A stretch of 33,497 nt of DNA from a virus. A program made the translations under genes and the position numbers. This document shows, one piece after another, positions 1 through 13,165 of the stretch. Numbering within the stretch: the stretch's first letter is position 1; each line of letters opens with the position of its first letter. The stretch covers positions 1 to 33,497 of IMG/VR virus record IMGVR_UViG_3300024517_000064; one strand, given 5' to 3'. The notes under the pieces were generated by a model. It saw nothing but the letters and a program-made list of their open reading frames with translations, was not told the origin of the DNA and ran no database searches.

Positions 1-315
1 CCGCTATTGCGGTCCTACGAGTCCGACAAGTGGGCCCACTACCAGCTGACCCATGACCGGTCGCTCACCGACGACCAGCGGATCAAAGCGTACAACCAGT
101 ACCTCGGGGAGACCGGACGTTCCGACGATGCGGTCTCCGACTCGCTGCTACGCCGGGAAGCGTTCTACCGGGATCTCAGAGCGGTAGCGGAGGCCCAAGC
201 CTCGCACGCCATGTCCGGTGTGGGCGATCTGGAGACCCTGATCGCTGCCGGTGAAGAGATCAATCGTCTCGACAGACTGATCGCCGCCGTCGCCGAACGG
301 AGGGCCCAACAATGA
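1..315 (+). CDS. Hypothetical protein, 5' end cut by window edge
   Basis: The frame is open from the first base and ends at TGA 313-315. An internal TTG at 7 could start translation, but no ribosome site is visible, so the gene probably begins left of the window. The visible ~104 residues are charged and helical, with a C-terminal heptad-like stretch (ETLIAAGEEINRLDRLIAAV) that could form a coiled coil. No family was recognised. It shares an ATGA overlap with the next gene, so the two are probably translationally coupled in one operon. Confidence 0.6.
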   Translation, partial: PLLRSYESDKWAHYQLTHDRSLTDDQRIKAYNQYLGETGRSDDAVSDSLLRREAFYRDLRAVAEAQASHAMSGVGDLETLIAAGEEINRLDRLIAAVAERRAQQ

Positions 316-809
316 GGTCACCAGACGGCGAGACACAGGACGAGCGGGTTATGCGTCTGGCACGCATAGCCTGCCGTCACTGGTCGGCGAACGCCGACTA
401 TCAGGATCAGGTTCAGATCGCCGCAACAGCAGTCTGGCAGTGCCTAGACCTCGAAGACTACCAGTGCATTCGCAGGGCACGAAACGCCTGCGCTGATCGC
501 TGGCGTCAAGTACACGGCAGGAACGGATGCAAGACGTCGACCTCGATGCCCCTACACATCGGAGGGGAGAGTGTGTCTCTCGTCACATCGCTAAAGTCTT
601 TGTCGCCTACTGCCGAGAGTGAGATTGCAGACATAGACCACCTAAAGCCTGCCGCCTTAGCGGCAGAGGCTGGCCTAGAAGGCACTCTCAAGCTAGTAGC
701 TATCAGGCTAGCTGAGGGCACGCCTAAGAAGGACATCGCAGTAGAGCTAGGGGTACACCCCTCAAGGGTGTCCCAGCACATCACAAGCCTCAGGGAGGCA
801 CTCACATGA
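312..809 (+). CDS. Sigma-factor-like HTH protein
   Basis: This 165-aa protein probably acts in transcription. Residues ~28-70 resemble sigma-70 region 2: DYQDQVQIAATAVWQCLD recalls the E/D-D-L-V-Q-E-x(4)-VW core, and RNACADRWRQ follows. Residues ~125-163 form a C-terminal helix-turn-helix like sigma region 4 (GTPKKDIAVELGVHPSRVSQH). An ECF-like sigma factor or a sigma-derived DNA-binding regulator both fit. The start is the ATG in an ATGA overlap with the gene before, and the stop overlaps the next start in the same way. Codons such as CTA are common towards the end, and this part looks less GC-rich than its neighbours. Confidence 0.65.
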   Translation: MRSPDGETQDERVMRLARIACRHWSANADYQDQVQIAATAVWQCLDLEDYQCIRRARNACADRWRQVHGRNGCKTSTSMPLHIGGESVSLVTSLKSLSPTAESEIADIDHLKPAALAAEAGLEGTLKLVAIRLAEGTPKKDIAVELGVHPSRVSQHITSLREALT

Positions 810-1126
810 GCCGCCACAGACACGACCACGTTGAGCTAGGCCCCACCGTTAACCGGTGGCACGTCGAATGTATGGACCTCGGAGCTCTAGGCACCAACGT
901 CTATGTGACCATAGACGGCATGGTCGGACTCGAATGCACCGCAAACGACGACATCGTGGTGAGCGTGATCCCCATGCTCAACGTCTCTGGTCTCTGGAAC
1001 GTCCGTTGCTGGGACGCACCAGGGCAAGAGGAATGGTCGCCCGACTCTGACGACCTCAAGGACCTCGACGGCGCCATCGTAGTGGCGCTGGAAGCCATCC
1101 GAAAGATCATTGCCGACCGGGCCTAG
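806..1126 (+). CDS. Hypothetical protein
   Basis: A 106-aa acidic protein of unknown function. The sequence looks like a small mixed alpha/beta domain: strands around residues 30-75 (NVYVTIDGMVGL, DDIVVSVIPML) and a C-terminal helix (DGAIVVALEAIRKIIADRA). No motif was recognised. The start overlaps the previous stop as ATGA. It is the last gene of the first operon block, and a 125-nt gap with a promoter candidate follows. Confidence 0.7.
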   Translation: MSRHRHDHVELGPTVNRWHVECMDLGALGTNVYVTIDGMVGLECTANDDIVVSVIPMLNVSGLWNVRCWDAPGQEEWSPDSDDLKDLDGAIVVALEAIRKIIADRA

Positions 1127-1129
1127 CAC

Positions 1130-1141
1130 CCGGCTATACTC
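1130..1141 (+). promoter_or_regulatory. Candidate promoter, TATACT -10 box
   Basis: The 12-mer CCGGCTATACTC lies just after the stop of the preceding gene and recurs exactly at 3554-3565. TATACT at 1135-1140 matches the -10 consensus. A weak TTGCCG lies at 1110-1115, but its 19-nt spacer is long. Transcription would start near 1147, giving a 5' leader of roughly 105 nt before the ATG at 1252. The call rests on the -10 match, the repeat and the intergenic position. Confidence 0.5.
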
Positions 1142-1142
1142 T

Positions 1143-1249
1143 CCCCGTTACCCTTCTGTCGGGGGGTACCTGTCGCCTGTGGTGGTGCGTCAGGATCAAT
1201 ACCCCCCGGCTCTCTCGGCCACATGTGGGGGTAGAGGTAGGAGGTACCC
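1143..1249 (+). promoter_or_regulatory. Structured 5' leader with competing pairings
   Basis: Three alternative pairings share the G-run at 1161-1170: CCCCG 1143-1147 with CGGGG 1160-1164; GGGGGGTA 1161-1168 with TACCCCCC 1200-1207; and GGGTACC 1164-1170 with GGTACCC 1243-1249. The last pairing covers the end of the ribosome site (GGTAGGAGG 1236-1244) and the spacer before ATG 1252. These pairings exclude each other, which would suit control of translation of the endolysin operon. No known riboswitch class was recognised. Confidence 0.35.
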
Positions 1250-1251
1250 AA

Positions 1252-1407
1252 ATGGTACACGATGCGAACGAAGAACTATCACCAGAAGAACAAGACGGCG
1301 ACGCCGACCTGTCACCCGGGGCCGAGGATCTGATCGAAATATCTCAGATCCTGGACTGGGAAGCGGCCATCGCCGACGAGGGTAACATCATTGCGGTGAT
1401 CCGATGA
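1252..1407 (+). CDS. Small acidic hypothetical protein
   Basis: A 51-aa, strongly acidic protein of unknown function. ATG 1252 is chosen over the upstream start at 1225 because GGTAGGAGG (1236-1244) sits 7 nt before it, the best ribosome site in this part of the window. The protein is rich in E and D (EELSPEEQDGDADLSPGAED), with a C-terminal helix and strand. Its stop overlaps the start of the endolysin gene as ATGA. It leads the endolysin operon, so it may be a translational leader or a lysis accessory (inference only). Confidence 0.65.
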   Translation: MVHDANEELSPEEQDGDADLSPGAEDLIEISQILDWEAAIADEGNIIAVIR

Positions 1408-2219
1408 GCCACCTTTACAGCCGTGAAGAAGCGGGCCTCGGTCAGCCCCGCAGGGTATCGCACAGCGTGCGCCCCGAGGGTATCACCGCCCACTGGTGGG
1501 GCCCATCACCGTTGGGTGGAGACCGCAGCCACGACAGGTGTGCGGGCATCTGGCGTGGAGGGTACCGCTACCACACCCAGTCCAGAGGATGGTCCGACAT
1601 AGCGTACAGCTCCGGCGTATGCTACCACGGGCACCGCTTCGAGGGCCGAGGCGCAGGTGTCCGCACCGCAGCCAACGGCACGAACGCCGGTAACAGCCGC
1701 TCGCTCGCCGTGGTCTACATCGCAGGTGTGGGCGACCCGCTCACCGAGGCCGCCAAAGCCGCATTCCACCTCGAAGCACAACGTCTAGGTCAGCCCCTCA
1801 AGTGGGCCCACCGGGACTGGAAGTCCACAGGCTGCCCGGGTGACGAGCTCGCCGCATGGATCCACGCTGGATCCCCTGCGTCAGGCGCCGTACTCGATAC
1901 GCCACCGTCAGTCGACCTCAAAGACGTCGACTTCGCAGCACTCCGCCGCCTAGTCGCAGCCGCCCTACTCAACTCGATCCCCCACCAACCGCAGCTCCGC
2001 CAGAAGGACAAGGGCATACATGTCGCCTTCTTGCAGAAGGTGTTGAACCATGCTGCCGGTCGCAAACTCAAGGTTGACGGGTCCTTCGGACCGTCCACCC
2101 ATCAGGCCGTTCGTGAAGTGCAACGCTTCACCGGAATACAAGCTGACGGTATCGTCGGCCCCCAAACCTGGACCGTATTAGCGTTCAGCTTAGAGAAGAT
2201 CCGTCGAGGAGACCAGTGA
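1404..2219 (+). CDS. Endolysin: N-acetylmuramoyl-L-alanine amidase with peptidoglycan-binding domain
   Basis: This 271-aa enzyme should cut the bond between muramic acid and L-alanine in the host wall. Residues ~18-155 match the PGRP/amidase_2 fold: His30 (GITAHWWG), His136 and Cys144 (AHRDWKSTGCPGD) are the expected zinc ligands, and GWSDIAYSS at 62-70 is the usual PGRP signature. Residues ~203-258 are a PG_binding_1 domain (LKVDGSFGPSTHQAVREVQR, then ADGIVGPQTW). There is no signal peptide or membrane segment, so release needs a holin. The holin candidates lie on the opposite strand at 12374-13382. It overlaps the upstream gene as ATGA and the downstream gene as GTGA. Confidence 0.93.
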   Translation: MSHLYSREEAGLGQPRRVSHSVRPEGITAHWWGPSPLGGDRSHDRCAGIWRGGYRYHTQSRGWSDIAYSSGVCYHGHRFEGRGAGVRTAANGTNAGNSRSLAVVYIAGVGDPLTEAAKAAFHLEAQRLGQPLKWAHRDWKSTGCPGDELAAWIHAGSPASGAVLDTPPSVDLKDVDFAALRRLVAAALLNSIPHQPQLRQKDKGIHVAFLQKVLNHAAGRKLKVDGSFGPSTHQAVREVQRFTGIQADGIVGPQTWTVLAFSLEKIRRGDQ

Positions 2220-2428
2220 ACGATTCAGCTTCCATGATCCCTAGCGTCAAGCCTGAACCACAGGTGCTAGGAATGAAACCGCTAGAAGTGGCACCCGTTA
2301 AGACCTTCATGGTCCCCGAAGATGAGATCGATCAGCCGATCAACTTCGACGGTGTACTTGGTGACGACATGGAGATCACCTCAATGTGTGACACTGAGAA
2401 CCCTGAGCCCTGTGACGCCTGCGGATGA
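2216..2428 (+). CDS. Small protein with C-terminal Cys cluster
   Basis: A 70-aa protein of unknown function, starting at GTG 2216 in a GTGA overlap with the endolysin stop. It is acidic and proline-rich, and ends in three cysteines (C58, C66, C69; pattern C-x7-C-x2-C) only one residue from the C-terminus. This could bind a metal or form disulfides. It sits between the endolysin and a 311-aa unknown gene in the same operon. No family was recognised. Confidence 0.6.
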   Translation: MNDSASMIPSVKPEPQVLGMKPLEVAPVKTFMVPEDEIDQPINFDGVLGDDMEITSMCDTENPEPCDACG

Positions 2429-3360
2429 GCCGGCACGCATTTAACGGGTGGCAAACCCTATTCCCCGGCACCCGCTCGCAGTATAGGCAGCAGCACTGCG
2501 ACGCACCGATAGACCGCCCGCTCGACACCGCCACGGTGCTCGAGTCCGAGGAGATCGACTGGGCGAACACCAAGTGGGGCCACCATGGTGCCATAGACAT
2601 ACGCTCCCCGTGGAAGTCGCCCCGTGACATAGGTGGACGGTCAATGCAGAAGGCCCACTCGTTTAAGCGGGCCAAGTTCACCATCGGGCACCCCGACGTC
2701 GGCTACTACGACGCCTACATCCCCGTGCCGGCAAGAGAAGACGGCTACTGGATCGAACACAACCCCAAACCCCTCATGCGTATGGAGCTCGAGGACTTCA
2801 TCGGTTCACTCCGAGGGAGTTACGCCTTCTACGACAGGCACATCCTCCTCATCGCCGACGTACCGGACCGTGACGGGACCCTCATCTGGGAACTCATCGG
2901 AGTGTCACGCACCTCAGGGTGGAAGGCCATGGCCCTAGCACGCTACGACAAGGACATGAACCTGATCGGGGTACACCCGCAGGACAAGCCGGTAACGTGG
3001 GGTGCAGGATTCCAGCAGCGCCAGTCGGGTGACGGTGTACCGTTGAGCTCCAGGCTTTGGAACTCGTTCGACCCGCCGCACCGACTCGCCATGTCACTGA
3101 AGGGCAACGACTTTGAGAAGATGAGTTTCCCTTGGGCCAACGACTGGCTCGCCTTGGACGGGGCACAGATCGACTGGGGGGTACTTTCCCTGTCGGAGAA
3201 ACTGCTGGCCGAGTCGCTCGTTGCACACGGCGCAGTGATAGACGACCACGGATCCACCCGGATCAGTGTCGTCGACGGGGCACAAGCCACCAGTTACTCC
3301 AACCTCTCCAACCAGCTGGCGTTCGGCAAGTTCCGGCGTGTCACTAAGGGGACAACATGA
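2425..3360 (+). CDS. Hypothetical protein of endolysin operon
   Basis: A 311-aa soluble protein with no recognised domain. It lacks a signal peptide and membrane segments and is rich in W, Y, H and D. Clusters such as WANTKWGHHGAIDIR (46-60), GYWIEHNPKP and TLIWELIGVS suggest a beta-rich fold, perhaps carbohydrate-related or a virion or wall-active accessory, but none is an identified active site. The ATG overlaps the previous stop as ATGA, and its own stop overlaps the next ATG. Its place two genes after the endolysin suggests a late role (inference). Confidence 0.65.
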   Translation: MSRHAFNGWQTLFPGTRSQYRQQHCDAPIDRPLDTATVLESEEIDWANTKWGHHGAIDIRSPWKSPRDIGGRSMQKAHSFKRAKFTIGHPDVGYYDAYIPVPAREDGYWIEHNPKPLMRMELEDFIGSLRGSYAFYDRHILLIADVPDRDGTLIWELIGVSRTSGWKAMALARYDKDMNLIGVHPQDKPVTWGAGFQQRQSGDGVPLSSRLWNSFDPPHRLAMSLKGNDFEKMSFPWANDWLALDGAQIDWGVLSLSEKLLAESLVAHGAVIDDHGSTRISVVDGAQATSYSNLSNQLAFGKFRRVTKGTT

Positions 3361-3533
3361 ACGACTGCGAAGACCATGTAGCTATCCGGGGCTCACTGTT
3401 CTGCCCGAACTGCGACAAACTGGTTGACCCCCTAGCCCTAAAGACAATCGACATCAGGTCGTTTGCCGGCCCCCAGTCCCTCAACCCCAAGGTTGAGCGG
3501 TTCTTGGAGACCGGGGACCCTTCGGGAATGTAG
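3357..3533 (+). CDS. Small zinc-ribbon-like protein
   Basis: A 58-aa protein starting at ATG 3357 (ATGA overlap) and ending at TAG 3531-3533. The N-terminus has C4, H7, C16 and C19 (CEDH, then FCPNCDKL), which looks like a compact zinc knuckle. The rest (DPLALKTIDIRSFAGPQSLN) is unknown. It closes the endolysin operon, and a candidate leaderless promoter begins 20 nt after its stop. Confidence 0.6.
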   Translation: MNDCEDHVAIRGSLFCPNCDKLVDPLALKTIDIRSFAGPQSLNPKVERFLETGDPSGM

Positions 3534-3553
3534 GGCGCACGCTCGACAGGGGA

Positions 3554-3571
3554 CCGGCTATACTCAACGTA
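3554..3571 (+). promoter_or_regulatory. Candidate leaderless promoter
   Basis: CCGGCTATACTC (3554-3565) is an exact copy of the 12-mer at 1130-1141. TATACT at 3559-3564 is followed after 6 nt by ATG 3571, so a transcript starting the usual ~7 nt after the -10 box would begin at the start codon. No ribosome site precedes the ATG, which fits a leaderless mRNA, common in Actinobacteria. No good -35 box is visible. Confidence 0.6.
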
Positions 3572-4176
3572 TGGCATTCGGACGGTACCCATGGATCTGG
3601 CAGATAGACCATATTAGCAGGGCAATAGGCCTAGCTCCTGAATCCTTTCAGGAAGTGATAGCCCCCGTCTGGAACACATCGCTGGAACGGCGGCGAGGCG
3701 TCGTGAACCTCGCAGCCGACAGCGAACTTCTCCCACCCGTCAGGTTCCTCCTCCTCCACGGTGTGCTCCCCAATGAGATCAGCAAGATCACCGAGGTCAA
3801 CGAGGCGGCAATCAAACGGTTCGCCTACGGCCACAAGCACGCACCCACACCGAAAGCACTCGACGTCGTAGCCCGCACCAAGAACGGGCAGTCCGCAGCA
3901 GAGATCCTGCGGGACGTAGGGAACACCGGTAAGGGCTGGCTGTACCGTGTGCTCGACCAAGCCAGGATCACACCCACCCCGTTCGGCAAACGTGGAGCCA
4001 CGAACAACGAACAGAGAGCGAAAGTTGCTGAGCTTTACAGGGCCGGCAAGACTTATTCACAAATCTCCTCAAGTACCGGCGTGTCTTTGACGAACGTGAA
4101 GAACATACTCCGAAGGGCCAGAGATTCCGGTCAGCTGCCAGAGTACGGTACCAGAGAGAAGGCCACCAATGATTGA
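3571..4176 (+). CDS. HTH DNA-binding protein
   Basis: A 201-aa protein. ATG 3571 is preferred over in-frame starts from 3463 because those lie inside the preceding gene and because the TATACT box sits 6 nt upstream. It seems to hold two or three helix-turn-helix units: residues ~64-84 (EISKITEVNEAAIKRFAYG), ~95-120 (QSAAEILRDVGNTGKGWLYR) and a C-terminal unit (TYSQISSSTGVSLTNVKNI) at ~160-185 that resembles resolvase or sigma region 4 HTHs. It may be an early regulator or DNA-binding protein. Its last 8 nt overlap the nuclease gene. Confidence 0.65.
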   Translation: MAFGRYPWIWQIDHISRAIGLAPESFQEVIAPVWNTSLERRRGVVNLAADSELLPPVRFLLLHGVLPNEISKITEVNEAAIKRFAYGHKHAPTPKALDVVARTKNGQSAAEILRDVGNTGKGWLYRVLDQARITPTPFGKRGATNNEQRAKVAELYRAGKTYSQISSSTGVSLTNVKNILRRARDSGQLPEYGTREKATND

Positions 4177-5059
4177 AACTCCCGTCACCATCCTCGACCC
4201 TGAAGGGGTCAAGGGCACACCGTTCGTCGAGGTAGTACGCCAGTCGTCTATCTCCGGGGTGGGCACCTGTTCCCGTCAGCTCATGTTCGACCGGATCCAC
4301 GGGTGGCAGCCGGGAGTGTTCAAGACGTTCGGCACCGCATATCATGCGGGGCTCGAAGCGTACCATCGGGGCGGCGAAGCTGCACCCGCAGTGGACTACG
4401 CCTTCTCCGATGCCGGCCAGAAGGATGCGGGCGACGAACCGCTCCCCGAGTCGGCATGGTCCGACTCCGACTGGGGCTCACTCCAAGGCGCCATCGACGT
4501 GTGTCAAGGCATGGTCCGTGTGTACCTGTCCGACTACGAGTGGGAGGTGCGCTACCCCGAGCTGGTAGGCCGCACGATAGGTGTCGAGGTCGACATCCAT
4601 GCAGACCTGCCACGTCCCGGCTTCGTACTGAAGGGCACCGTTGACCGGGCCATCGACGTGCAAGGCACCGAGCTCGGTGAAGAACTTCAACTCGACCACC
4701 TCCTCGTCGACTACAAGACAGCCCGCAGGGCATGGCCCAAGGGCAAAGAACACCCTCGGAAGAACGTCCAGGGTTCATGGTACGTTCACTGGTGGAGGTA
4801 CCTGTGGTCAATGCAGAACGGCGGGGAGATCCTCCGTACCGGGTTCGCATTCGACATCATGACCCACAAGGGGAAGCATGAGGTCCGTTACGTCAAGCCC
4901 ACGGATGCCCAAGTGGCAGCCGTGTTGAGCAAGGCCGCATCGTATGTGTCCCTCATCGAGAACGACGGGCCATGGTTGCCCAACACGGACTCGTTCCTGT
5001 GTTCGGCCAAGTGGTGTGACCATTGGAACCGCTGCGAGTACGGCGCAGCGATAAGCTGA
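4169..5059 (+). CDS. Cas4/RecB-like Fe-S PD-(D/E)XK nuclease
   Basis: A 296-aa nuclease of the RecB/Cas4 group, likely processing DNA ends in phage recombination or replication. Visible motifs are C34 (GVGTCSRQL), H59 (FGTAYHAGLEAY), the catalytic core D159 (LKGTVDRAID) and D181-x-K183 (LLVDYKTAR), and Q201-x3-Y205 (QGSWY). C278, C283 and C289 (FLCSAKWCDHWNRC) would join C34 to hold a 4Fe-4S cluster, as in Cas4 and AddB. No cas1, cas2 or repeat array is nearby, so a CRISPR role is unlikely. The start ATG overlaps the HTH gene by 8 nt. The following small protein may be its DNA-binding partner. Confidence 0.88.
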   Translation: MIETPVTILDPEGVKGTPFVEVVRQSSISGVGTCSRQLMFDRIHGWQPGVFKTFGTAYHAGLEAYHRGGEAAPAVDYAFSDAGQKDAGDEPLPESAWSDSDWGSLQGAIDVCQGMVRVYLSDYEWEVRYPELVGRTIGVEVDIHADLPRPGFVLKGTVDRAIDVQGTELGEELQLDHLLVDYKTARRAWPKGKEHPRKNVQGSWYVHWWRYLWSMQNGGEILRTGFAFDIMTHKGKHEVRYVKPTDAQVAAVLSKAASYVSLIENDGPWLPNTDSFLCSAKWCDHWNRCEYGAAIS

Positions 5060-5082
5060 AGAATCCCCTAAAGGAATCGACC

Positions 5083-5104
5083 GTGCCATCCGAAGGGATA
5101 GCAC
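5083..5104 (+). other. Short hairpin in intergenic gap
   Basis: GTGCCATCC (5083-5091) pairs with GGATAGCAC (5096-5104), with one C-A mismatch, around a GAAG tetraloop closed by C-G. It lies in the 65-nt gap between the nuclease gene and the next ATG at 5125. It has no T-run, so it could be an mRNA-stabilising, processing or weak termination element. Confidence 0.4.
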
Positions 5105-5124
5105 ACGACGAAAGAGAGAGCCGA

Positions 5125-5634
5125 ATGGCTTTAACTGAGAAGGACCAGCAGATATTCGCCAGCGTGGCGGTCAAAGGGGCAGTCGATCTTGTCGCTGCCG
5201 GCCAACGCACGAGTCTGGACGACACATCATCGGAGATCTTCGGGCTACTGCTCGACCTCGCCGCCCTCGCAGTCGGTGCACAAACACCAGCAGCGCCGGC
5301 ACAGGCTCCCGTGAGCTACCCTGCGGAGACCCCCTTGGTCCCACACGCAGAAGCACAGCAGACCACTGAGGGAGCCGTACAGGCCGTCTCAGCGGCATTC
5401 GGTGCTACTGCGATCCAGCCAGCCCCATCAGACGGCCCTTGGTACGAGCTGTTCCGGGACCCGGCACTGTTCTTCGACAACCGCAACTCCAAGCGGAACC
5501 CGAAGGCACCGGACTTCAAGGCCAAGAACACCTCCAACATCGTCGACGCCAAGGGAGAGCCAGCTGCTCTCTGGATCGACGGACGTTCCACCCCGGACTG
5601 GGTGGAAGACTGGGCAACAACCCTACCAGTCTAA
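5125..5634 (+). CDS. Hypothetical, possible ssDNA-binding partner of nuclease
   Basis: A 169-aa protein. ATG 5125 is chosen because a purine-rich site (AAAGAGAGAG) lies just upstream and earlier in-frame starts fall inside the nuclease gene. Residues 1-50 are helical, 52-100 form an Ala/Pro-rich flexible linker, and 104-169 form a compact domain (WYELFRDPALFFDNRNSKR, then PDFKAK, then AALWIDGRSTPDWVEDW). The DNR, PDFK and ALW-D-P-W pattern is familiar from unnamed actinophage proteins near recombination genes. A DNA-binding role is only inferred from its place beside the nuclease. Confidence 0.6.
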   Translation: MALTEKDQQIFASVAVKGAVDLVAAGQRTSLDDTSSEIFGLLLDLAALAVGAQTPAAPAQAPVSYPAETPLVPHAEAQQTTEGAVQAVSAAFGATAIQPAPSDGPWYELFRDPALFFDNRNSKRNPKAPDFKAKNTSNIVDAKGEPAALWIDGRSTPDWVEDWATTLPV

Positions 5635-5647
5635 CTAGGCGTACACC

Positions 5648-5676
5648 GGGGGGTCGGCCCTAACAGGCCGGCCCCT
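5648..5676 (+). terminator. Candidate terminator hairpin without T-tract
   Basis: GGGTCGGCC (5651-5659) pairs with GGCCGGCCC (5666-5674) with one G-T wobble, extended by G5650-C5675, around a 6-nt loop. No T-run follows, as is common for hairpin terminators in high-GC actinobacterial genomes. It lies in the 75-nt gap between the nuclease block and the sigma-like gene at 5710, where a new unit may start. Confidence 0.5.
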
Positions 5677-5709
5677 CAACAAACCACCATCTTCTACCGA
5701 ACGGGTAAC

Positions 5710-6327
5710 ATGAACGACAACACCACCAAACGCAGCCTCGAAGAACTACGTGTCATAGCGATGCACTGCACCAAACCGATCCGCTCCACCCCGAACAACG
5801 ATGAGGACGACTGCTTCAACTACGTCTGGTCCGAACTGTGGAACCGGGACCAAACCCACGGCCCGCACGACTCGAACATCCTGTTCTGGCTGGGACGCAA
5901 GTACGCCCACCGTTTCTTCGAGACGACCTACGGTCGCAGCGACTCGAAACAAGGTCGCCGTCAGCTCCACGAGAACACCGTCACAGCATCCGCCACCGTC
6001 TCCACCGAGACCGGCGAGTCCATGACATGGTTGGAGGTCGCCGGCAATGGCGCCAACTACACAACCTGCGGACATATCGCCGGCCCAGAATCCGCCCTCA
6101 ACACCGACGAGTTCTACCTCGACGACATGGGAATCCAGGGTGAAGACAGAGAGATCATCGACCGGCTACTCGCAGGCGACAAGCGAGCCGACATCTGCGA
6201 AACGCTAGGCATCAGCCGCAACACGTTCGCCAAACGCCTGCGCCTCCTCGCCATCGACATGTACGGGTCAGAGAAGATCGAAGAAGAACAGGCCACCCGC
6301 AACCTGATGAAACTGCGTGGCCGGTGA
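5710..6327 (+). CDS. Sigma-like HTH protein
   Basis: A 205-aa protein with the layout of a divergent sigma factor. The N-terminus (DDCFNYVWSELWNRDQ, then FWLGRKYAHRFFE) recalls sigma region 2. The C-terminus (DREIIDRLLAGDKRADICET, then LGISRNTFAKRLRLLA) at ~147-185 is a clear HTH like region 4. The middle is an acidic, less ordered linker. It begins at ATG 5710 after the hairpin at 5648-5676, with only a weak ribosome site. Its stop overlaps the helicase start as GTGA. It may recruit RNA polymerase to phage promoters or regulate replication genes. Confidence 0.6.
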   Translation: MNDNTTKRSLEELRVIAMHCTKPIRSTPNNDEDDCFNYVWSELWNRDQTHGPHDSNILFWLGRKYAHRFFETTYGRSDSKQGRRQLHENTVTASATVSTETGESMTWLEVAGNGANYTTCGHIAGPESALNTDEFYLDDMGIQGEDREIIDRLLAGDKRADICETLGISRNTFAKRLRLLAIDMYGSEKIEEEQATRNLMKLRGR

Positions 6328-7229
6328 GCTGGGAATACACCACCCTCGAGGACTACGTTGGCGAGGCAGCCGAATACGCTGCCCTCGGACGGATCCCCAC
6401 AGGGTTCCCGTTCTTCGACAAGCGGATCGGAGGTGGCGTCACCCAAGGTGAGGTCACCCTCATGCTCGCCCGCACCAGCGTCGGCAAGACATGGTGGCTC
6501 GCAAACGTCATCGCCAACAACCCGGGCATCCCCGCCATCTTCTTCTCCATCGAAATGGCAGGTCGTGCCATGGCGATACGCCTAGCGGCGATCACCACCG
6601 ACACCCCCGACGCAGAGATCAAACACCAGCTCGAAGAACAGGGCTACTCGTCGGCACTCGACAAGCTGCCCGACCTCCTCCCCAAACTCACACTCGTCGA
6701 CGACTCAGGCATCACCCTGCGTAAGATGTCGACGATCATCAACGAGGTCGAAGACCGCACAGGTGAGAGGCCCAGGTTTGTGGGCATCGACTACCTCGAG
6801 CTCGTGTCCGGCGCACCCGGCATGGAAGCAACATCGCAGGTGTCCGACCTGTCAAAGGACATCAAGCGGTGGGCCCGACGCATGGACGTCCACGTCTTCG
6901 TCCTACATCAGGTGCCCCGAGGGAGGATGGGGCAGAAGGACGGCAAGCCGTTGCAGAACGATGGGCATATGCCACTGACCCTACAGTCAGGGAAGTACGG
7001 CGGCGAGGAAGCCGCCGACTATGTGCTCGGAGCGTACCGCCCGCACCTCGACCCCGAGCTCACCTTCGATCAGATGGAGTTCCACAAGGGCGAGTTCTTT
7101 ATGCAGTTCTTGAAGACCAGAGGCGGAGATCAGACACACCCTCAAGGTGTGGAACACAGAATCAACACTCGTTCAGGGCGGATCCGCCCGCTGAAACGAT
7201 CCGACAACTACAATCAAGAGGCATTCTGA
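6324..7229 (+). CDS. DnaB-type replicative helicase, RecA core only
   Basis: This 301-aa ATPase should unwind DNA ahead of the phage fork. It matches the C-terminal RecA domain of DnaB: Walker A is ARTSVGKT (49-56), SIEM with catalytic Glu77, Walker B FVGIDYLELV with Asp156, a sensor-like His195-Gln196 (LHQVPRG), and KTRGG at 264-268 corresponding to the basic finger region. The DnaB N-terminal domain is missing, and the chain begins only ~25 residues before the core. It starts with GTG in a GTGA overlap and lies upstream of the primase gene at 8173, so the two probably act as a pair. Confidence 0.88.
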   Translation: MSWEYTTLEDYVGEAAEYAALGRIPTGFPFFDKRIGGGVTQGEVTLMLARTSVGKTWWLANVIANNPGIPAIFFSIEMAGRAMAIRLAAITTDTPDAEIKHQLEEQGYSSALDKLPDLLPKLTLVDDSGITLRKMSTIINEVEDRTGERPRFVGIDYLELVSGAPGMEATSQVSDLSKDIKRWARRMDVHVFVLHQVPRGRMGQKDGKPLQNDGHMPLTLQSGKYGGEEAADYVLGAYRPHLDPELTFDQMEFHKGEFFMQFLKTRGGDQTHPQGVEHRINTRSGRIRPLKRSDNYNQEAF

Positions 7230-7402
7230 TGAGCACACCAGACCCCGAATCAAGGCACGTCTTCGTGGCGTGTGACAAGCCTAAGAAGTGGTGGCAAATA
7301 ACCCGCCACGCTTGGTACTGGGAAGACACAAAACCCGGCGATGTTGACGCCGTGCACTGCTATCGGTGCACCGCTGGAGGTATCTACGGTGGCGACCGAT
7401 GA
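7229..7402 (+). CDS. Small Cys/Trp-rich protein
   Basis: A 57-aa protein starting at ATG 7229 in a TGATG overlap with the helicase stop. It has C15 and a CxxC at C44-C47 (HCYRC) plus many aromatics (KKWWQITRHAWYWED), so a small zinc-binding fold is possible. The in-frame extension upstream lies wholly inside the helicase gene and was discarded. No family was recognised. Confidence 0.55.
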   Translation: MSTPDPESRHVFVACDKPKKWWQITRHAWYWEDTKPGDVDAVHCYRCTAGGIYGGDR

Positions 7403-7629
7403 GAGGCCTACTATCAGCGGCAGCCCTAGCCGCCACACTACTCGCACCCGTCGCCTACCATGTAGCGATGCGCCTATACCTCACCAGAGAAGACGAAGGC
7501 GAAGCAGGCGAAGAAGCATGGGACCGCTACGTCGAAGAAGCAACAGCCTACAACGAATCTAAGCGGAGCAAGCCCCGACCCCGCACAGAGCTCGAAGATG
7601 TCGAGCGATACAACTGGGGGCAGGAGTGA
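7399..7629 (+). CDS. Small membrane protein
   Basis: A 76-aa protein starting at ATG 7399 in an ATGA overlap. A hydrophobic segment at residues ~3-25 (LLSAAALAATLLAPVAYHV) acts as a membrane anchor or signal anchor. An acidic then basic soluble tail follows (REDEGEAGEEAWDRYVEEA). It directly precedes the lipoprotein gene, and the two may act together at the envelope (inference). A second in-frame ATG at 7366 lies inside the previous gene. Confidence 0.6.
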   Translation: MRGLLSAAALAATLLAPVAYHVAMRLYLTREDEGEAGEEAWDRYVEEATAYNESKRSKPRPRTELEDVERYNWGQE

Positions 7630-7635
7630 ACACCA

Positions 7636-8076
7636 ATGAAACGAATCCTACTAACAGCGATCCTGGCTTTAGGGGTCTGCCTGACAGCGTGCACCCCCGC
7701 AGAGGTGGCAGCATACCTGACCCTCACACCAGAACAGCAGCAGCTAGTCAACCAGAGGCACCCCGAACTCAACGGGACGAAACCACAATGGAGCCCGAGC
7801 CGGCACCCAACCCTAGTGTGCATACGTCATCACGAATCAGACCGTGGACCGTATCCTCACGGGAATGGCTACGCAGCACAGAACGGCACTTCCTCGGCCT
7901 CAGGAGCCTACCAGTTTATCGACGGTACATGGCGGACGATGAGCGCACGAGCAGGGCACCCCGGATACAGTCGAGCAAAGTACGCACCCGGCTGGGTTCA
8001 GGACGCCGTAGCTTTGTACACCGTCAACCAGTATGGCGCTTCGAGCTCGATGACATGGGCGGGGAGCGGCTGCTGA
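7636..8076 (+). CDS. Rpf/transglycosylase-like lipoprotein
   Basis: A 146-aa exported protein. Residues 1-18 form a signal peptide (MKRILLTAILALGV) ending in the lipobox LTAC with Cys19, so the mature form should be lipid-anchored. Residues ~57-146 match the lysozyme-like resuscitation-promoting factor fold: C62 and catalytic Glu67 (CIRHHESD), HGNGYAAQN, SGAYQFIDGTWRTM, a Q-x-A-V-A-like helix (GWVQDAVALYTV) and a final Cys146 that would pair with C62. Such domains cut peptidoglycan glycan strands. It lies between helicase and primase genes, away from the lysis genes, so superinfection exclusion or wall remodelling is possible. A ribosome site (GCAGGAG) precedes ATG 7636. Confidence 0.85.
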   Translation: MKRILLTAILALGVCLTACTPAEVAAYLTLTPEQQQLVNQRHPELNGTKPQWSPSRHPTLVCIRHHESDRGPYPHGNGYAAQNGTSSASGAYQFIDGTWRTMSARAGHPGYSRAKYAPGWVQDAVALYTVNQYGASSSMTWAGSGC

Positions 8077-8186
8077 TGCGACTGCCCATGCTGCGTTACC
8101 TCGACTGGAAACAATTGCCGCTCTGGAAGCGTATGATGCTACGCTTCAAGGGCACAACGTGGGAGACATACGATGGAACCGACTGA
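8076..8186 (+). CDS. Very small basic hypothetical protein
   Basis: A 36-aa protein starting at ATG 8076, which shares its A with the lipoprotein stop (TGATG). Its last 14 nt overlap the primase start. It is basic and aromatic (LRYLDWKQLPLWKRMMLRF) and might be an amphipathic helix. The frame stays open far upstream, but that part runs antiparallel in meaning to the lipoprotein gene and looks non-coding. The tight coupling supports it, but the short length leaves doubt. Confidence 0.45.
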   Translation: MRLPMLRYLDWKQLPLWKRMMLRFKGTTWETYDGTD

Positions 8187-9111
8187 CCTCGAAGACGCCA
8201 AACGTATCCCCATCCTCGACGTGATAGAGGCCCTCGATCTCGAGCCTCTCATCCGGGACGGTAAGACGTTCTGCTGGCAGCATGAGGAGTACACCCCCTC
8301 AGTTCAGGTGTACGAGAATGAGAACCGGTGGCGTGCATACTGTTGCGCTACCGGCGGCGACACCATCGACCTAGTTAAAACCTATTTCGGTTGCAGCTTT
8401 GGTCGGGCGGTGCGCTGGATCCTGTCGACCGGCCTCGAACCCATTGAAGGGGACGGGGTTGGTCGGCGCAAGGTCAAAGAAGCCGTCGACTTCCTGCGGC
8501 GAGTTCAGACAGAGGTCGACGAGAGACCGGAGACCTGCGACGGGTGGATCCAAGCTCGCTGGCCCGGTGTGGCTAACGGGCCCAGTGGAGACCTCTTCTC
8601 CCCCACCACCCACTTCCACCTAGGGTGGACGCTCCAACATCTGTGGATACCACACTGGTACACGGACATGGACGGCTTACACTGCAACGGTGTGAAGACA
8701 AGGTTCTGGCTCAACACCGACAAGAAAGCCCTCAAAGGGTCCACCTACCCTCGCCTCTACCGTGCGCCACACGCACGGGCAGAGATGGCAGTCCTATGCG
8801 AAGGCGAATCGGATACATGGTGCATGGCCGCACAGCTGACAGACAAGCCCGACATAGAAGCCGTGGGTCTACCCTCAGGGGCAGGCCACCACCCCGAATC
8901 GATCATCAGCGAGCTCGGCCTATACAAGCACATCTACCTCGCACTCGACACGCAGAAAGACAACGGCGACGAGGACAAAGCCGGCGTCGAAGCAACCGAA
9001 GCCATCCTCGAAGCCCTCTGGCTTCGTGGCCCTTCAGGGGTAGAGATCCTACCCGTACCCGGCGGACGGGTAGCAGAAGCAACCGCCAACCAATGGAGAC
9101 CATTCGCATGA
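8173..9111 (+). CDS. DNA primase (Toprim)
   Basis: A 312-aa primase that should make RNA primers for phage replication. The N-terminus has a CHC2-like zinc ribbon (FCWQHEEYTPSVQVY) with C34 and H37, then C57-C58 in YCCATGGD. The canonical second pair is CxxC, so this ribbon is degenerate. The Toprim domain is clear: E210 and D214 (VLCEGESDTW) and the acidic motif starting at D259 (YLALDTQKDNGDEDKAG). No helicase domain is fused; the DnaB-type helicase is encoded separately at 6324. The gene overlaps its neighbours by 14 and 4 nt. Confidence 0.85.
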   Translation: MEPTDLEDAKRIPILDVIEALDLEPLIRDGKTFCWQHEEYTPSVQVYENENRWRAYCCATGGDTIDLVKTYFGCSFGRAVRWILSTGLEPIEGDGVGRRKVKEAVDFLRRVQTEVDERPETCDGWIQARWPGVANGPSGDLFSPTTHFHLGWTLQHLWIPHWYTDMDGLHCNGVKTRFWLNTDKKALKGSTYPRLYRAPHARAEMAVLCEGESDTWCMAAQLTDKPDIEAVGLPSGAGHHPESIISELGLYKHIYLALDTQKDNGDEDKAGVEATEAILEALWLRGPSGVEILPVPGGRVAEATANQWRPFA

Positions 9112-9458
9112 GCAACCCGTCCAAACGTATCGGAACAGAATGGGAGAACGAATGCCTACCCCGACTCCAACGAATCTGGGGGGAACACGTCGACCGTTCA
9201 GCCCCAACCACACCGTCCAACGACTTCCACGGACAGCCCATACCAGTCGAAGCGAAATGCCGCAAGACATGGGGCATACCCGACTGGATCCGGAAGATCC
9301 GGGCGGTAGCATCCGACCACCGATGGGTCATCCTCATCTCCCCCAGAGACATGCGAACCATTTACTCGAAACAGATCGGACAGATAGCAGTCCTCGACAT
9401 CGAGTTCGCAGAAGAACTACTCCAATGCTACTACGACAACCAGGAGCCAACCGAATGA
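9108..9458 (+). CDS. PD-(D/E)XK resolvase-like nuclease
   Basis: A 116-aa protein. The ATG in the ATGA overlap at 9108 is used, because upstream in-frame sequence is a shadow of the primase. Glu11 (RIGTEWENE), Asp39 (SNDFHG) and the E48-x-K50 pair (PIPVEAKCRKTW) form the PD-(D/E)XK set in the order seen in archaeal-type Holliday junction resolvases and phage resolvase-like nucleases. It could cut branched DNA during recombination or packaging. Helicase and primase genes lie just upstream. Confidence 0.78.
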   Translation: MSNPSKRIGTEWENECLPRLQRIWGEHVDRSAPTTPSNDFHGQPIPVEAKCRKTWGIPDWIRKIRAVASDHRWVILISPRDMRTIYSKQIGQIAVLDIEFAEELLQCYYDNQEPTE

Positions 9459-9835
9459 GCCAGCCACACATCCTCTACATAGCGGGCCCCATGTCCGGGA
9501 TCCACGAATGGAACTTCCCAGAGTTCAGACACTGCACGTCCGAGCTCCGTGAAGCAGGGTACGAGGTCATCTCCCCCGTCGAAATGGACGAGGAGCAATA
9601 CCCCACACTCGACGTTCAAGACATGGACGGCACCGAAGACCTCGCCGACCTCGTAGGCTTCGACCGTAGGGCCACCCTCGCCAACGACCTCGCCGTCATC
9701 TGCACAGAGGCGTCCGGTGTGGCAACCCTCCCCGGCTGGACGAAATCCAGCGGTGCCATGGCCGAGGTAGCCGCCGCCAATGCGGTAAACATACCTGTCC
9801 TCACCGTGAAACAGTGGATCGATGCCGCCTTCTAA
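9455..9835 (+). CDS. DUF4406 / nucleoside deoxyribosyltransferase-like protein
   Basis: A 126-aa protein starting at ATG 9455 (ATGA overlap). ILYIAGPMSGIHEWNF at the N-terminus and TLPGWTKSSGAMAEVAAA near residue 90-107 are the hallmarks of the DUF4406 family, which shares a fold with nucleoside 2-deoxyribosyltransferases. It may act in nucleotide salvage or base handling during infection. The catalytic role is not proven for this family. The dNMP kinase downstream fits a nucleotide theme. Confidence 0.8.
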   Translation: MSQPHILYIAGPMSGIHEWNFPEFRHCTSELREAGYEVISPVEMDEEQYPTLDVQDMDGTEDLADLVGFDRRATLANDLAVICTEASGVATLPGWTKSSGAMAEVAAANAVNIPVLTVKQWIDAAF

Positions 9836-10034
9836 AACGAAACGGAACCTACAGTTCCGGCTCACCATCGAACCGCTCGCCGGCAACGGGCAACCAGTGC
9901 CCGACGTCGAACCAGTCGTCACCCAATGGGGCCTCAACTACGCCACCAAATGGGGCGAATCACACCTCGAACTCGGGGTCCGCACACTCATCAACGACGC
10001 ACTCGCAAGAGTCGAAAGGGCAGACAATGGTTAA
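9822..10034 (+). CDS. Hypothetical protein
   Basis: A 70-aa protein starting at ATG 9822, inside the last 14 nt of the preceding gene. It has a basic N-terminus (PPSKTKRNLQFRLTI), a Pro/Val-rich turn region and a C-terminal helix (ESHLELGVRTLINDALARVE). No family was recognised. The last 8 nt overlap the next gene, which supports coupled translation. Confidence 0.6.
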   Translation: MPPSKTKRNLQFRLTIEPLAGNGQPVPDVEPVVTQWGLNYATKWGESHLELGVRTLINDALARVERADNG

Positions 10035-10557
10035 AGGATACAGCAGACCCCCAGGATCACCCTCAGCAGACTTCGCAACCGCAAGAATATTCGAGGAAGA
10101 AGTAGGCGCACAGCTCGCCGAACAAGGCGTCGAACACATCCAACGGTTCAGCCACAACGACGACCTCGACATCTGGGTACCCGGCTACTACCTAGAAGTC
10201 AAAGAGAAACGGCAGCCGCTAACAGACCGCTGGCACCTACTCGAAGGTGTCGAACCGGAGAACCTGTTCGTACTCGACGAACTATCGGTTCGTCGTGGCG
10301 TCCGACACTGGCCGGCAGTCTACTTCCTCCTCCGAGACGTACCCCTCAACCGCTGCTTCCTCGCACCCATCTGGGAAGTCATCGCATGCCGGCGAGCCCG
10401 GATCAACAGGCAAGGCAAAGGCAAATGGGTCGTAGACCTCACCGAGTTCCGCCAGCTAAACGACCTCGACGAGATCAACCCGATCATTATGCAAGAACTC
10501 CCCGAGCTCCCATGGAAATCATCCGCATGCCTAGGCAGAGGGATCGGACAGGTATGA
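10027..10557 (+). CDS. Second PD-(D/E)XK-type protein
   Basis: A 176-aa protein. ATG 10027 follows an AAAGGG ribosome site; earlier starts lie within neighbouring genes. The motif D48 (DDLDIWVPG) and E57-x-K59 (YYLEVKEKRQ) is typical of small endonuclease folds of the VRR-NUC or resolvase type. The rest is alpha/beta (NLFVLDELSVRRGVRHWPAV). It could be a structure-specific or site-specific nuclease. It is not closely alike in sequence to the gene at 9108. Its stop overlaps the membrane gene as ATGA. Confidence 0.65.
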   Translation: MVKGYSRPPGSPSADFATARIFEEEVGAQLAEQGVEHIQRFSHNDDLDIWVPGYYLEVKEKRQPLTDRWHLLEGVEPENLFVLDELSVRRGVRHWPAVYFLLRDVPLNRCFLAPIWEVIACRRARINRQGKGKWVVDLTEFRQLNDLDEINPIIMQELPELPWKSSACLGRGIGQV

Positions 10558-10721
10558 TCGTCGACTGGATCCTCTGGCTACTGAGCATAGCGATCTCATT
10601 CAGCATCCTCGTATTCGCAGGCGCAGCCATAGTCTGGCTACTCTCTCTACTAGAACTAATCTTCGATGTCAACTGGTCCCGAAAGGACGACGATGCAAGT
10701 TCCAACGAACGTACAGAATAG
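10554..10721 (+). CDS. Small membrane protein
   Basis: A 55-aa protein from ATG 10554 (ATGA overlap; GGACAGGT just upstream as a ribosome site). Residues ~5-38 are strongly hydrophobic (ILWLLSIAISFSILVFAGAA, then IVWLLSLLELIF), enough for one long or two short membrane helices. A charged tail follows (WSRKDDDASSNERTE). It has a holin-like look but lies amid nucleotide genes, so the function is open. Confidence 0.6.
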   Translation: MIVDWILWLLSIAISFSILVFAGAAIVWLLSLLELIFDVNWSRKDDDASSNERTE

Positions 10722-11298
10722 GCGCCTCAAAGGGCGGCTCCTCGGTCTAGGCTGCACGCAACGTGTCGGCAAAGACACGGTAGCCGAATACCTTGTCGGC
10801 GAACACGGCTGGGTGCAGTTCGCATTCGCCGACAACGTGAGAGCCCTCACGTCCGCCCTCTACCCGGACGTCGCCGACGCCGTGTACCACACCAACTGGG
10901 AGGAAGCCAAGGAAGACCTCGAGGTCCGCAAAGCTCTCATCGATGTCGGAGTCGAGGTGCGTAGGCACACCCACCCTGACGTGTGGATCTGGGCCATAGC
11001 GGAACAGGTCGCCAAGGTCCGCAACCAAGGGAAAGATGTCGTGATCTCAGATGTCCGTTTCCTCGACGAGGTAAGGTTCGTCCGTCAGACCGGTGGCCGC
11101 AACATCTGCCTCACCCGGGAAGGCTCACCGCAGGCAGATCTGCGGTCCGAGTCGCTCACCGAAGCGGACTTCGATTACGTTCACCGCAACGACGGCGACA
11201 TCGACGAGCTCTACGAATGGGTAGACGACTTCATCATCAACGACGGCGCCGTGTCTATACTCGATGACGTCACCCTCAAAGATGCCGGCATCCTGTGA
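10693..11298 (+). CDS. Deoxynucleoside monophosphate kinase
   Basis: This 201-aa kinase would phosphorylate dNMPs to feed phage DNA synthesis, like T4 gene 1 product. The P-loop region LLGLGCTQRVGKDTVAEYL (16-34) fits the family; Cys21 stands where the first Walker glycine is usual. VVISDVRFLDEVRFVRQ is the conserved Walker B/DVRF segment. A basic DVGVEVRR stretch lies between. ATG 10693 is chosen over 10666 because AAAGGA precedes it by ~6 nt. It overlaps the membrane gene by 29 nt and the next gene as GTGA. Confidence 0.82.
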   Translation: MQVPTNVQNRRLKGRLLGLGCTQRVGKDTVAEYLVGEHGWVQFAFADNVRALTSALYPDVADAVYHTNWEEAKEDLEVRKALIDVGVEVRRHTHPDVWIWAIAEQVAKVRNQGKDVVISDVRFLDEVRFVRQTGGRNICLTREGSPQADLRSESLTEADFDYVHRNDGDIDELYEWVDDFIINDGAVSILDDVTLKDAGIL

Positions 11299-11582
11299 GC
11301 GACAGGGAAAGGCTCCACGGTTTCACGATTGACCCGGCAGTCCTAGACGACATGGGTATGCCTGAACCGGTAGCGGCATTGAAGACGTTCGAGGAGGTCG
11401 GCGAAGCCGTCGACCGTCTCGACGAACCGTACCGTGAGCTCGTCGAAGCGTTCTACTACGAACGCCGGTCGATCAGATCCATAGCTAACACGTTCGGATG
11501 GTCGAGGCATAAGGTGAAGACAACCCTGGAAGTAGCGACCAGCCTCCTCGCTGTAGACCTAGAGGTAGACACCGATGGCTGA
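11295..11582 (+). CDS. Sigma region 4-like HTH protein
   Basis: A 95-aa protein starting with GTG 11295 (GTGA overlap). Residues ~36-85 resemble sigma-70 region 4 with no region 2: VDRLDEPYRELVEAFYYERR, then SIRSIANTFGWSRHKVKTTL. This is the third sigma-like gene in the window. It may bind RNA polymerase or DNA as a small regulator. It overlaps the next gene by 8 nt. Confidence 0.65.
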   Translation: MSDRERLHGFTIDPAVLDDMGMPEPVAALKTFEEVGEAVDRLDEPYRELVEAFYYERRSIRSIANTFGWSRHKVKTTLEVATSLLAVDLEVDTDG

Positions 11583-11889
11583 CGACTGCCTATACGACGG
11601 CGAATGTGTGCATCAGCCACGCATCTGCCGGTACTGCGAAGACAACACCGAAGACACCTGCAACCCCTACTACCTTGACAAGATAGCACGGGGTCTTGTA
11701 ACCCCGTTGGAGGAGACGTTCACTGATGACGAGCTGGATTGGATCGCACGTCCGAAAGATCATGGGGAAGGGCGAAGGTCGGACCAGTATGCGACGGGAC
11801 TTGTGGGTACTCCTGTCCGCATTAGCCGAGACGGTCGCCCACTGGCGATTGGAGGAGACGTTCAGCGCAAACGAAGAGGCCCTCAGTGA
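11575..11889 (+). CDS. Cys-rich hypothetical protein
   Basis: A 104-aa protein from ATG 11575. Five cysteines fall in the first 29 residues (C5, C11, C18, C21, C29), including a CxxC (ICRYCEDN), which suggests a zinc knuckle or disulfide fold. Residues 30-65 are helical and acidic. The last ~40 residues are basic (QRKRRGPQ) and share ~100 nt with the next gene in another frame, so either the tail of this gene or the start of the next is uncertain. Confidence 0.6.
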   Translation: MADDCLYDGECVHQPRICRYCEDNTEDTCNPYYLDKIARGLVTPLEETFTDDELDWIARPKDHGEGRRSDQYATGLVGTPVRISRDGRPLAIGGDVQRKRRGPQ

Positions 11890-12250
11890 CGAGAACGCTG
11901 AACTGTACGCAGAGAACGTGGAGCTGAGGAATGCCGCCCAAACGTACATCCTCGGAATCAAAGCAGCGAACACCGAACTCATCAGGGCGCTCGCCCGGAT
12001 ACAAGCGTCCATCGAAATTGGGAGAGAAGCCCCGGTCGGCACGCAAGCCGGCACCGACGAATGGGTCATCGAACAAACCGAAGCTGAGCTCGGTGAGCTC
12101 TACGCTGCCGGCTGGGAGTTCAACGCCGACCTCACAGAACGAGACGACTGGGCCGGACGTCGACCCATCGCACTCCAACCATGGTGGGAAGACTCCGCCG
12201 ACGAAATCTTTGGAGGACCCAATGTCAGCGAGTCAGATACCGATGAGTGA
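11789..12250 (+). CDS. Coiled-coil acidic hypothetical protein
   Basis: A 153-aa protein taken from ATG 11789; alternative in-frame ATGs lie at 11762 and 11726, deeper in the previous gene. The heptad-rich part (ANEEALSDENAELYAENVEL, then RNAAQTYIL) suggests a coiled coil over residues ~20-75. The C-terminus is acidic and Trp-rich (QPWWEDSADEIFGG). The 101-nt out-of-frame overlap with the preceding gene is unusually long for this window. The function is unknown. Confidence 0.6.
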   Translation: MRRDLWVLLSALAETVAHWRLEETFSANEEALSDENAELYAENVELRNAAQTYILGIKAANTELIRALARIQASIEIGREAPVGTQAGTDEWVIEQTEAELGELYAAGWEFNADLTERDDWAGRRPIALQPWWEDSADEIFGGPNVSESDTDE

Positions 12251-12377
12251 ACGGGCCCACTTTGAACAGTGGGTCCGTCTAGGCATCGACAAGAAATGGT
12301 TGAACAGGAACGCATTAGAGCGGGCCAACCAAGGCAGCCCGCTCCGTTTGCGTCCCGAGAACATACCGAAGGTTTAG
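12222..12377 (+). CDS. Small basic hypothetical protein, last plus-strand gene
   Basis: A 51-aa protein from ATG 12222, preceded at 5 nt by a strong GGAGG. It is basic and helical (ERAHFEQWVRLGIDKKWLNR), then PRLRPENIPKV-like in character. No family was recognised. A longer in-frame reading from 11931 is rejected because it overlaps the coiled-coil gene and has low-complexity shadow composition. Its TAG (12375-12377) overlaps the stop codon of the oppositely transcribed holin gene. Confidence 0.65.
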   Translation: MSASQIPMSERAHFEQWVRLGIDKKWLNRNALERANQGSPLRLRPENIPKV

Positions 12378-12562
12378 TCCGGCGGGTTCAACGACGTGTT
12401 ACCAGAGGCGAGGACGCCTCCGAACACTGCGGTAGCGATACCGAGAACTTGCACGGAGACCTCTTCTGAGATCCACCCTGCTGCGAGTAGTAGTGGTACG
12501 ACGGCGACGAGTACACGGTACACTATCGCCCTGTTGCGTTCTTTGCTAAACCATTCGATCAT
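12374..12562 (-). CDS. Putative holin, two membrane helices
   Basis: A 62-aa protein with hydrophobic segments at ~12-29 (AIVYRVLVAVVPLLLAAG) and ~34-52 (EVSVQVLGIATAVFGGVLA), a short turn between, and a small polar C-terminus (SGNTSLNPPD). Such small two-helix proteins with this kind of Asn-Thr end are common as holin candidates in actinophages. GGAGA lies ~7 nt before the ATG. It is the last gene of the late operon. It would let the amidase at 1404 reach the wall (inference). Confidence 0.72.
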   Translation of the reverse strand: MIEWFSKERNRAIVYRVLVAVVPLLLAAGWISEEVSVQVLGIATAVFGGVLASGNTSLNPPD

Positions 12563-12571
12563 GTGTTTCTC

Positions 12572-13165
12572 CTACGGTATCGGTGAGCCCGGGTCTGTCA
12601 GGTAGAACAGTCCGGTCTCCGTTTCGTTCGTGTGTGTGTGTAGAGCGTTCGCATTGTACATGTTCTCGGTACGCAGCTTGTAGTATCCGGGCACGTCGAT
12701 AGGGCCGGAAATCTCCACTGTCACAGGGATGTCCTTTAGGTCTACCCTCTGGTCGATGGGGAACTTCTCGAGCCGCAACCACAGCTCTGATTGCACCGTG
12801 TCGGCGATCCCGTCAGGTTCGCCCCTTGGGGAGTACCTGTCCAACCAGCGTACCGCTGTGATGTCCACGCCGTCGTTCTGGATGGATGTCGTGTAGCGGA
12901 TCTCTCCGCCGACCCGGTACACTGGTATCCCTTCGGACGTGTGCTCGGTGGAGAAGAGTGCGGACGGCTGACTGATCGACGAGTGAGGCCAGAACCAGGA
13001 CACCTGCGTCACGAAGGTGACCAGAAGTAGAACCAGAACGACGCCAGCAAGGACCCTAGCTGCAACCTCACATCGGCGGCCGCTACATGGGAGCAGATTT
13101 GTGAGCCGACCACTACGGCCAGCGGAATTCCTCGGCGAATGCGGTGACATCGGTGGAACGGCCAT
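12572..13165 (-). CDS. Membrane-anchored protein with extracellular domain
   Basis: A 197-aa protein with a basic N-terminus, one membrane helix at ~36-58 (ARVLAGVVLVLLLVTFVTQV) and a ~135-aa C-terminal domain predicted outside. That domain is beta-rich (GIPVYRVGGEIRYTTS, DIPVTVEISGPIDVPGYYK) and may be an Ig-like sandwich. It lies between two holin-type proteins, so a lysis accessory (antiholin, spanin-like or envelope protein) is possible. The ATG lies one base after the upstream gene's stop. No family was recognised. Confidence 0.62.
   Translation of the reverse strand: MAVPPMSPHSPRNSAGRSGRLTNLLPCSGRRCEVAARVLAGVVLVLLLVTFVTQVSWFWPHSSISQPSALFSTEHTSEGIPVYRVGGEIRYTTSIQNDGVDITAVRWLDRYSPRGEPDGIADTVQSELWLRLEKFPIDQRVDLKDIPVTVEISGPIDVPGYYKLRTENMYNANALHTHTNETETGLFYLTDPGSPIP

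Follow-up and report, generated by a model that had tools for sequence, protein, structure and literature searches.

Three promoters of the -10 type read by the host's housekeeping sigma factor probably serve the early, rightward-directed genes of an actinophage-like virus, and the middle one is predicted to be leaderless, its mRNA beginning at the start codon of a helix-turn-helix regulator (probability of this reading about 0.7). The position of the regulator promoter appears to be kept in a group of distantly related phages, and the predicted leader varies in this group from none to about 100 bases. The most interesting part of the analysis is this comparative series of leader lengths.

The virus record and its relatives

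The window (the whole stretch of DNA analysed) is a virus record of 33,497 bases, classed as linear, in which genes are directed rightward from position 1 to about 12,377 and leftward beyond. Two contigs of the same virus, G001 and G002, are 99.93% and 99.95% identical to the window over 26.6 kb. They begin at window positions 6833 and 6903 and so cover neither copy of the 12-mer described below. G002 runs 11.1 kb past the end of the window, which gives a composite of 44,639 bases, and contains a stretch of about 700 bases (706; G002:37032-37737, the same as L023:18032-18737) without long open reading frames, located where the late and early regions diverge, for which Rfam returned nothing above threshold. 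The late ORF at 24252-26123 includes two stretches of 121 bases (window 25755-25873 and 25968-26086) that are 72% alike and constitute an internal protein repeat.

The capsid protein is nearest to those of Gordonia and Streptomyces phages (33%), a weak similarity that gives a slight hint of an actinobacterial host. Phage records gave no DNA match for window positions 1-8000 and no protein match for the regulator. Direct scans of viral sequences with the regulator, ORF 2425 and the nuclease as queries found nothing, but an alignment of the DnaB proteins of three phages retrieved 34 viral loci, about 30 of which are distant relatives. The same alignment gave no relative in a scan of genome contigs, and no host was therefore assigned.

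Site 2 and the regulator operon

The regulator operon and the conserved block to which it belongs comprise the following features of the window:

3554-3565, + strand: site 2, CCGGCTATACTC, with a proposed -10 box TATACT at 3559-3564; the same spacing is found at the homologous gene in L065, L066 and L069
3571-4176, + strand: helix-turn-helix regulator of 201 aa, predicted to be leaderless, with transcription starting at or near the A of ATG 3571 (Sigma70_r4_2, 1.2e-6; HTH_23, 9e-6); homologues in relatives
4169-5059, + strand: PD-(D/E)XK nuclease, second gene of the regulator operon (profile matches; synteny in relatives)
6324-7229, + strand: DnaB-like helicase, marker of the conserved block (profile matches)

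As the initial annotation had stated, TATACT lies 6 bases from the ATG at 3571, with CAACGT between them, and no usable ribosome-binding site is present. No Shine-Dalgarno site falls 4-12 bases ahead of the ATG, and AGGGGA (3548-3553), the only purine-rich stretch, is not one because it is 17 bases from the ATG, which is too far. Across bacteria, leaderless genes, of which lambda provided the first example, are marked by TANNNT about 12 bases ahead of the start codon, and in Actinobacteria and Deinococcus-Thermus they make up more than 20% of the genes (PMC3160421); the first T of TATACT is located 12 bases ahead of ATG 3571. The M. tuberculosis motif TANNNT, found ahead of 73% of primary starts, often follows [G/C][A/G]N and is not accompanied by a -35 motif; roughly one gene in four is leaderless in that species (PMC3898074). 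The sequence GGC-TATACT at site 2 matches this actinobacterial SRN-TANNNT motif (PMC3898074). A sigma-70 scan of window positions 1-13000 for -35/-10 pairs found no TTGACA-like -35 box 16-18 bases ahead of a -10 box, which is expected of promoters that have no -35 box.

Site 2 is thus a probable leaderless promoter, to judge from its sequence and spacing. The earlier proposal that transcription begins at the start codon holds for the geometry, which is as described for leaderless genes (PMC3160421) and is seen again in distant relatives, at the homologous gene; the start itself is a prediction, placed at or within 1-2 bases of ATG 3571. The leaderless mRNA would carry the regulator, followed by the nuclease and DnaB genes. 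The helix-turn-helix of the regulator is C-terminal and of the sigma-region-4/HTH_23 type, according to Pfam and PHROG. As its start codon, ATG 3571 is favoured over TTG 3463 because the bases upstream overlap a gene (3357-3533) that has homologues of its own, and because residue 68 of the window's protein aligns with residue 67 of the L082/G004 homologue. For annotation, the gain is that the regulator should begin at ATG 3571.

Site 1 and its predicted leader

The same kind of box is found ahead of the endolysin operon:

1130-1141, + strand: site 1, CCGGCTATACTC, with a proposed -10 box TATACT at 1135-1140; putative promoter of the 1252/endolysin operon
1147-1251, + strand: predicted leader (105 bases) of the site 1 transcript, with AGGAGG at 1239-1244 (mutually exclusive pairings; folding z -0.99)
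1252-1407, + strand: ORF of 51 aa, first gene of the site 1 operon, the stop codon of which overlaps the endolysin start (no family match)
1404-2219, + strand: endolysin with a peptidoglycan-binding domain (PF01471, 1.1e-14; phrog_1493, 3.9e-33)

A transcript starting about 7 bases past the box would have 105 bases ahead of ATG 1252, a length that agrees with the leader of about 105 bases originally proposed, and would offer a Shine-Dalgarno site to the ribosome. Either of two mutually exclusive sets of pairings may form in this leader: one joins 1160-1168 with 1200-1208, and the other joins 1164-1171 with 1242-1249, over part of AGGAGG, together with 1200-1206 and 1227-1233. These pairings are strong, yet overall the leader folds no better than shuffled sequences (z -0.99), and it has no Rfam match. 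The suggestion that one box serves two modes of translation is plausible.

Copies of the shared word

Only two exact copies of CCGGCTATACTC are present in the window and in the whole record, both on the + strand. They lie between operons, as had been reported, and occupy the gaps between ORFs at 1127-1251 (site 1) and 3534-3570 (site 2). Many copies within coding regions had been named as evidence against a promoter, and the scan found no copy in any gene. A third copy, CGGCTATCCTC, is located beyond the end of the window in the large non-coding gap of G002, where it reads GCGGCTATCCTC at composite position 43,979 (G002:37077), in the 706-base stretch ahead of the early region. The pattern CGGCTATNCTC has three exact matches in the 44.6-kb composite (both strands searched), all of them intergenic and rightward. 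The third copy is a partly independent test: the word was defined without it, but the N of the pattern was picked after it had been seen.

Finding some 12-mer twice in 33 kb is in itself not unusual, and the window's four matches with up to two mismatches are reached by 13 of 100 shuffles; the unlikely part is the location in two short gaps. In dinucleotide shuffles of the early-region gaps (404 bases), two early gaps shared a word of at least 12 bases in 11 of 2,000 cases, and the number was 48 of 2,000 when the non-coding gap beyond the window was added. Of the composite's eight TATACT words, two lie in early gaps in the sense orientation (binomial P 0.004). It is very improbable that the 12-mer is a coincidence in a GC-rich genome, with the regulator made from read-through transcripts: such repeats do arise in shuffles, and nine exact matches to the 12-mer plus ATG in IMG/VR were judged unrelated by their context, but two short gaps hold the copies, the third copy is also intergenic, and relatives show the same spacing at their homologous gene.

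The initial annotation had raised the possibility of a phage-specific promoter, a proposal that the analysis does not support. It would have CCGGCTATACTC recognised by a phage-encoded sigma-like protein, with the three sites as one regulon. The extended core of 11 bases common to the three gaps does exceed what a bare -10 box needs, and there are two candidate proteins: ORF 312-809, which weakly resembles the ECF sigma factor model nearly from end to end (TIGR02937 residues 20-164, E 4e-4, below the cut-off), and ORF 11295-11582, which resembles sigma region 4 only (E 3e-6, below the cut-off). However, an ordinary -10 hexamer plus the SRN extension accounts for the core, both sigma matches fall under the curated cut-offs, and, although site 1 is downstream of a candidate sigma gene, the word was not seen before late genes. 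The 12-mer is also missing at the homologous promoters of relatives, and with the nine IMG/VR matches unrelated, it appears to be private to this virus. A dedicated phage sigma factor is accordingly considered unlikely.

The preferred reading is that the 12-mers are -10 elements which the host's housekeeping RNA polymerase would recognise without a -35 box, with a third such promoter in the non-coding gap ahead of the early region. The sequence of the boxes, their spacing, their clustering between genes and their recurrence in relatives are observed; from these we infer promoter activity, transcription start sites, the sigma factor and the type of host.

Leader length at homologous promoters

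The distant relatives have DnaB proteins 40-45% identical and a G+C content of 42 to 68%, and most of those with a long enough contig keep the gene order endolysin, regulator, nuclease, DnaB. Leader length was surveyed in the relatives by reading the bases ahead of the regulator start. In L065, L066 and L069 (42% G+C), the hexamer and its spacing are identical to those of the window (TATACT-N6-ATG), and the ATG is the first possible start codon because an in-frame stop codon directly precedes it; the regulator homologue of this group is shorter (110 aa) and matches the C-terminal part only. The same box is found 8 bases before the ATG in L067 and L070. L063 has TAGGAT-N7-ATG, in which TAGGAT could alternatively be a Shine-Dalgarno site (AGGA, 8 bases). 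Elsewhere the distance from the -10 box to the ATG is 22 bases (L053), 31 bases (L071 and L073), 34 bases (L055), 73 bases (L061, with the weak hexamer AAAAAT) or 97-104 bases (L080, L082, L059 and L062), and most of the relatives with leaders have a GAGAAGGA-type Shine-Dalgarno site at the end of the leader. In the L072-L081 group, no gap separates the regulator ORF from the endolysin ahead of it.

On trees of DnaB and of the nuclease, the three leaderless cases require three changes. The branch of the window is very long on both and its placement unsure, which makes the number of leader gains and losses tentative. The position of the regulator promoter would be ancient in this phage group, and the leader would have been lost or gained several times.

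The element TGTCNC is found exactly 10 bases ahead of the -10 hexamer in ten anchored cases among the relatives. A high-GC contig has such a site at this promoter and nowhere else, or has no site that satisfies the strict pattern; in some contigs a handful of further matches occur, mostly within genes. Site 2 of the window has no TGTCNC, TCGACA being present in its place, and thus the window's regulator promoter is not a simple orthologue. In L055, L071 and L073, the -10 box of the homologous promoter is surrounded by a dyad (GTGGTTGTC/GACAACCAC and GTGGGTGTC/GACACCCAC), the arms of which vary among the phages and stay complementary. The dyad of these relatives suggests an operator, possibly for autoregulation, or else an RNA hairpin if transcription were to start upstream.

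These elements bear on whether the word shared by sites 1 and 2 is itself an operator, bound by the regulator or another phage repressor and overlapping unrelated promoters, its likeness to a promoter being secondary. The two sites share the upstream half CCGG besides the hexamer, and both the dyads and the TGTCNC-N10 kept at this promoter in most relatives resemble binding sites of the regulator, but site 2 has no inverted repeat and the window has no TGTCNC, and an operator is regarded as quite unlikely.

The group presents a comparative case in which one homologous operon start has predicted leaders of 0 to about 100 bases. Such a series would supply matched natural pairs for asking when phages choose leaderless translation. 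A broader proposal, put forward tentatively and rather doubtful as a whole, is that a widespread group of uncultured phages keeps the place of this promoter and, in most lineages, a TGTCNC operator, and has repeatedly switched between no leader and a structured leader of up to about 100 bases with a Shine-Dalgarno site; the switch would alter translation of the regulator's own mRNA in infection, and leaderless initiation would be a selected mode of control, not a by-product.

RNA elements in the relatives

In the relatives, the gap before the endolysin contains a TAGACT-like word and a terminator-like hairpin. The words CTAGACT-N7 in this position in G004 and G009 were considered as leaderless promoters and rejected, the true endolysin start being further downstream, past the terminator-like hairpin. 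Upstream of the endolysin in L053, L062, L065, L080 and L082, the loops of terminator-like hairpins directly past a -10-like word keep GTTCCTCCTCG, which is an anti-Shine-Dalgarno-like word; these hairpins could belong to a small phage RNA.

Type II hammerhead ribozymes (Rfam RF02276, above the gathering score) also occur in the high-GC relatives as arrays upstream of the endolysin on the early strand, with six sites in L071:474-3420, four in L061:517-2359 and three in L055:1891-3343; none was found in the window or in L023. The same region holds a tmRNA-like RNA of only 82-92 bases (L061:1828-1919 and L071:4979-5060), the tRNA-like ends of which match RF00023. In L061, about 31 bases stand for the 312 of the middle part, too few to contain the usual tag ORF and pseudoknots. 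This RNA is not called by ARAGORN.

Comparison with known systems

Leaderless regulator mRNAs are already known, and the arrangement is common in actinobacteria; by itself, the window's promoter would be ordinary for a phage of a host rich in leaderless genes. The cI mRNA made from PRM of lambda is leaderless, and the message of this phage DNA-binding regulator begins at its AUG. The window likewise has a phage DNA-binding regulator predicted to be made from an mRNA starting at AUG, but it is no CI homologue by any search, and it starts a nuclease/DnaB operon. Pfam and PHROG gave this gene matches of the sigma-region-4/HTH_23 type only, none to a CI/Cro-type repressor, and no lysogeny genes came up in the analysis.

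The weak resemblance of ORF 312-809 to ECF sigma factors recalls ECF sigma-factor regulons, whereas the sites in the window are -10-only boxes and lack the ECF-type -35/-10 pair. The closest likeness is to actinobacterial leaderless promoters (PMC3160421, PMC3898074). Although the window's shared word is longer and the 5' end of the transcript is a prediction, site 2 has the same hexamer and spacing, GGC fits [G/C][A/G]N, and neither a -35 box nor a Shine-Dalgarno site is present.
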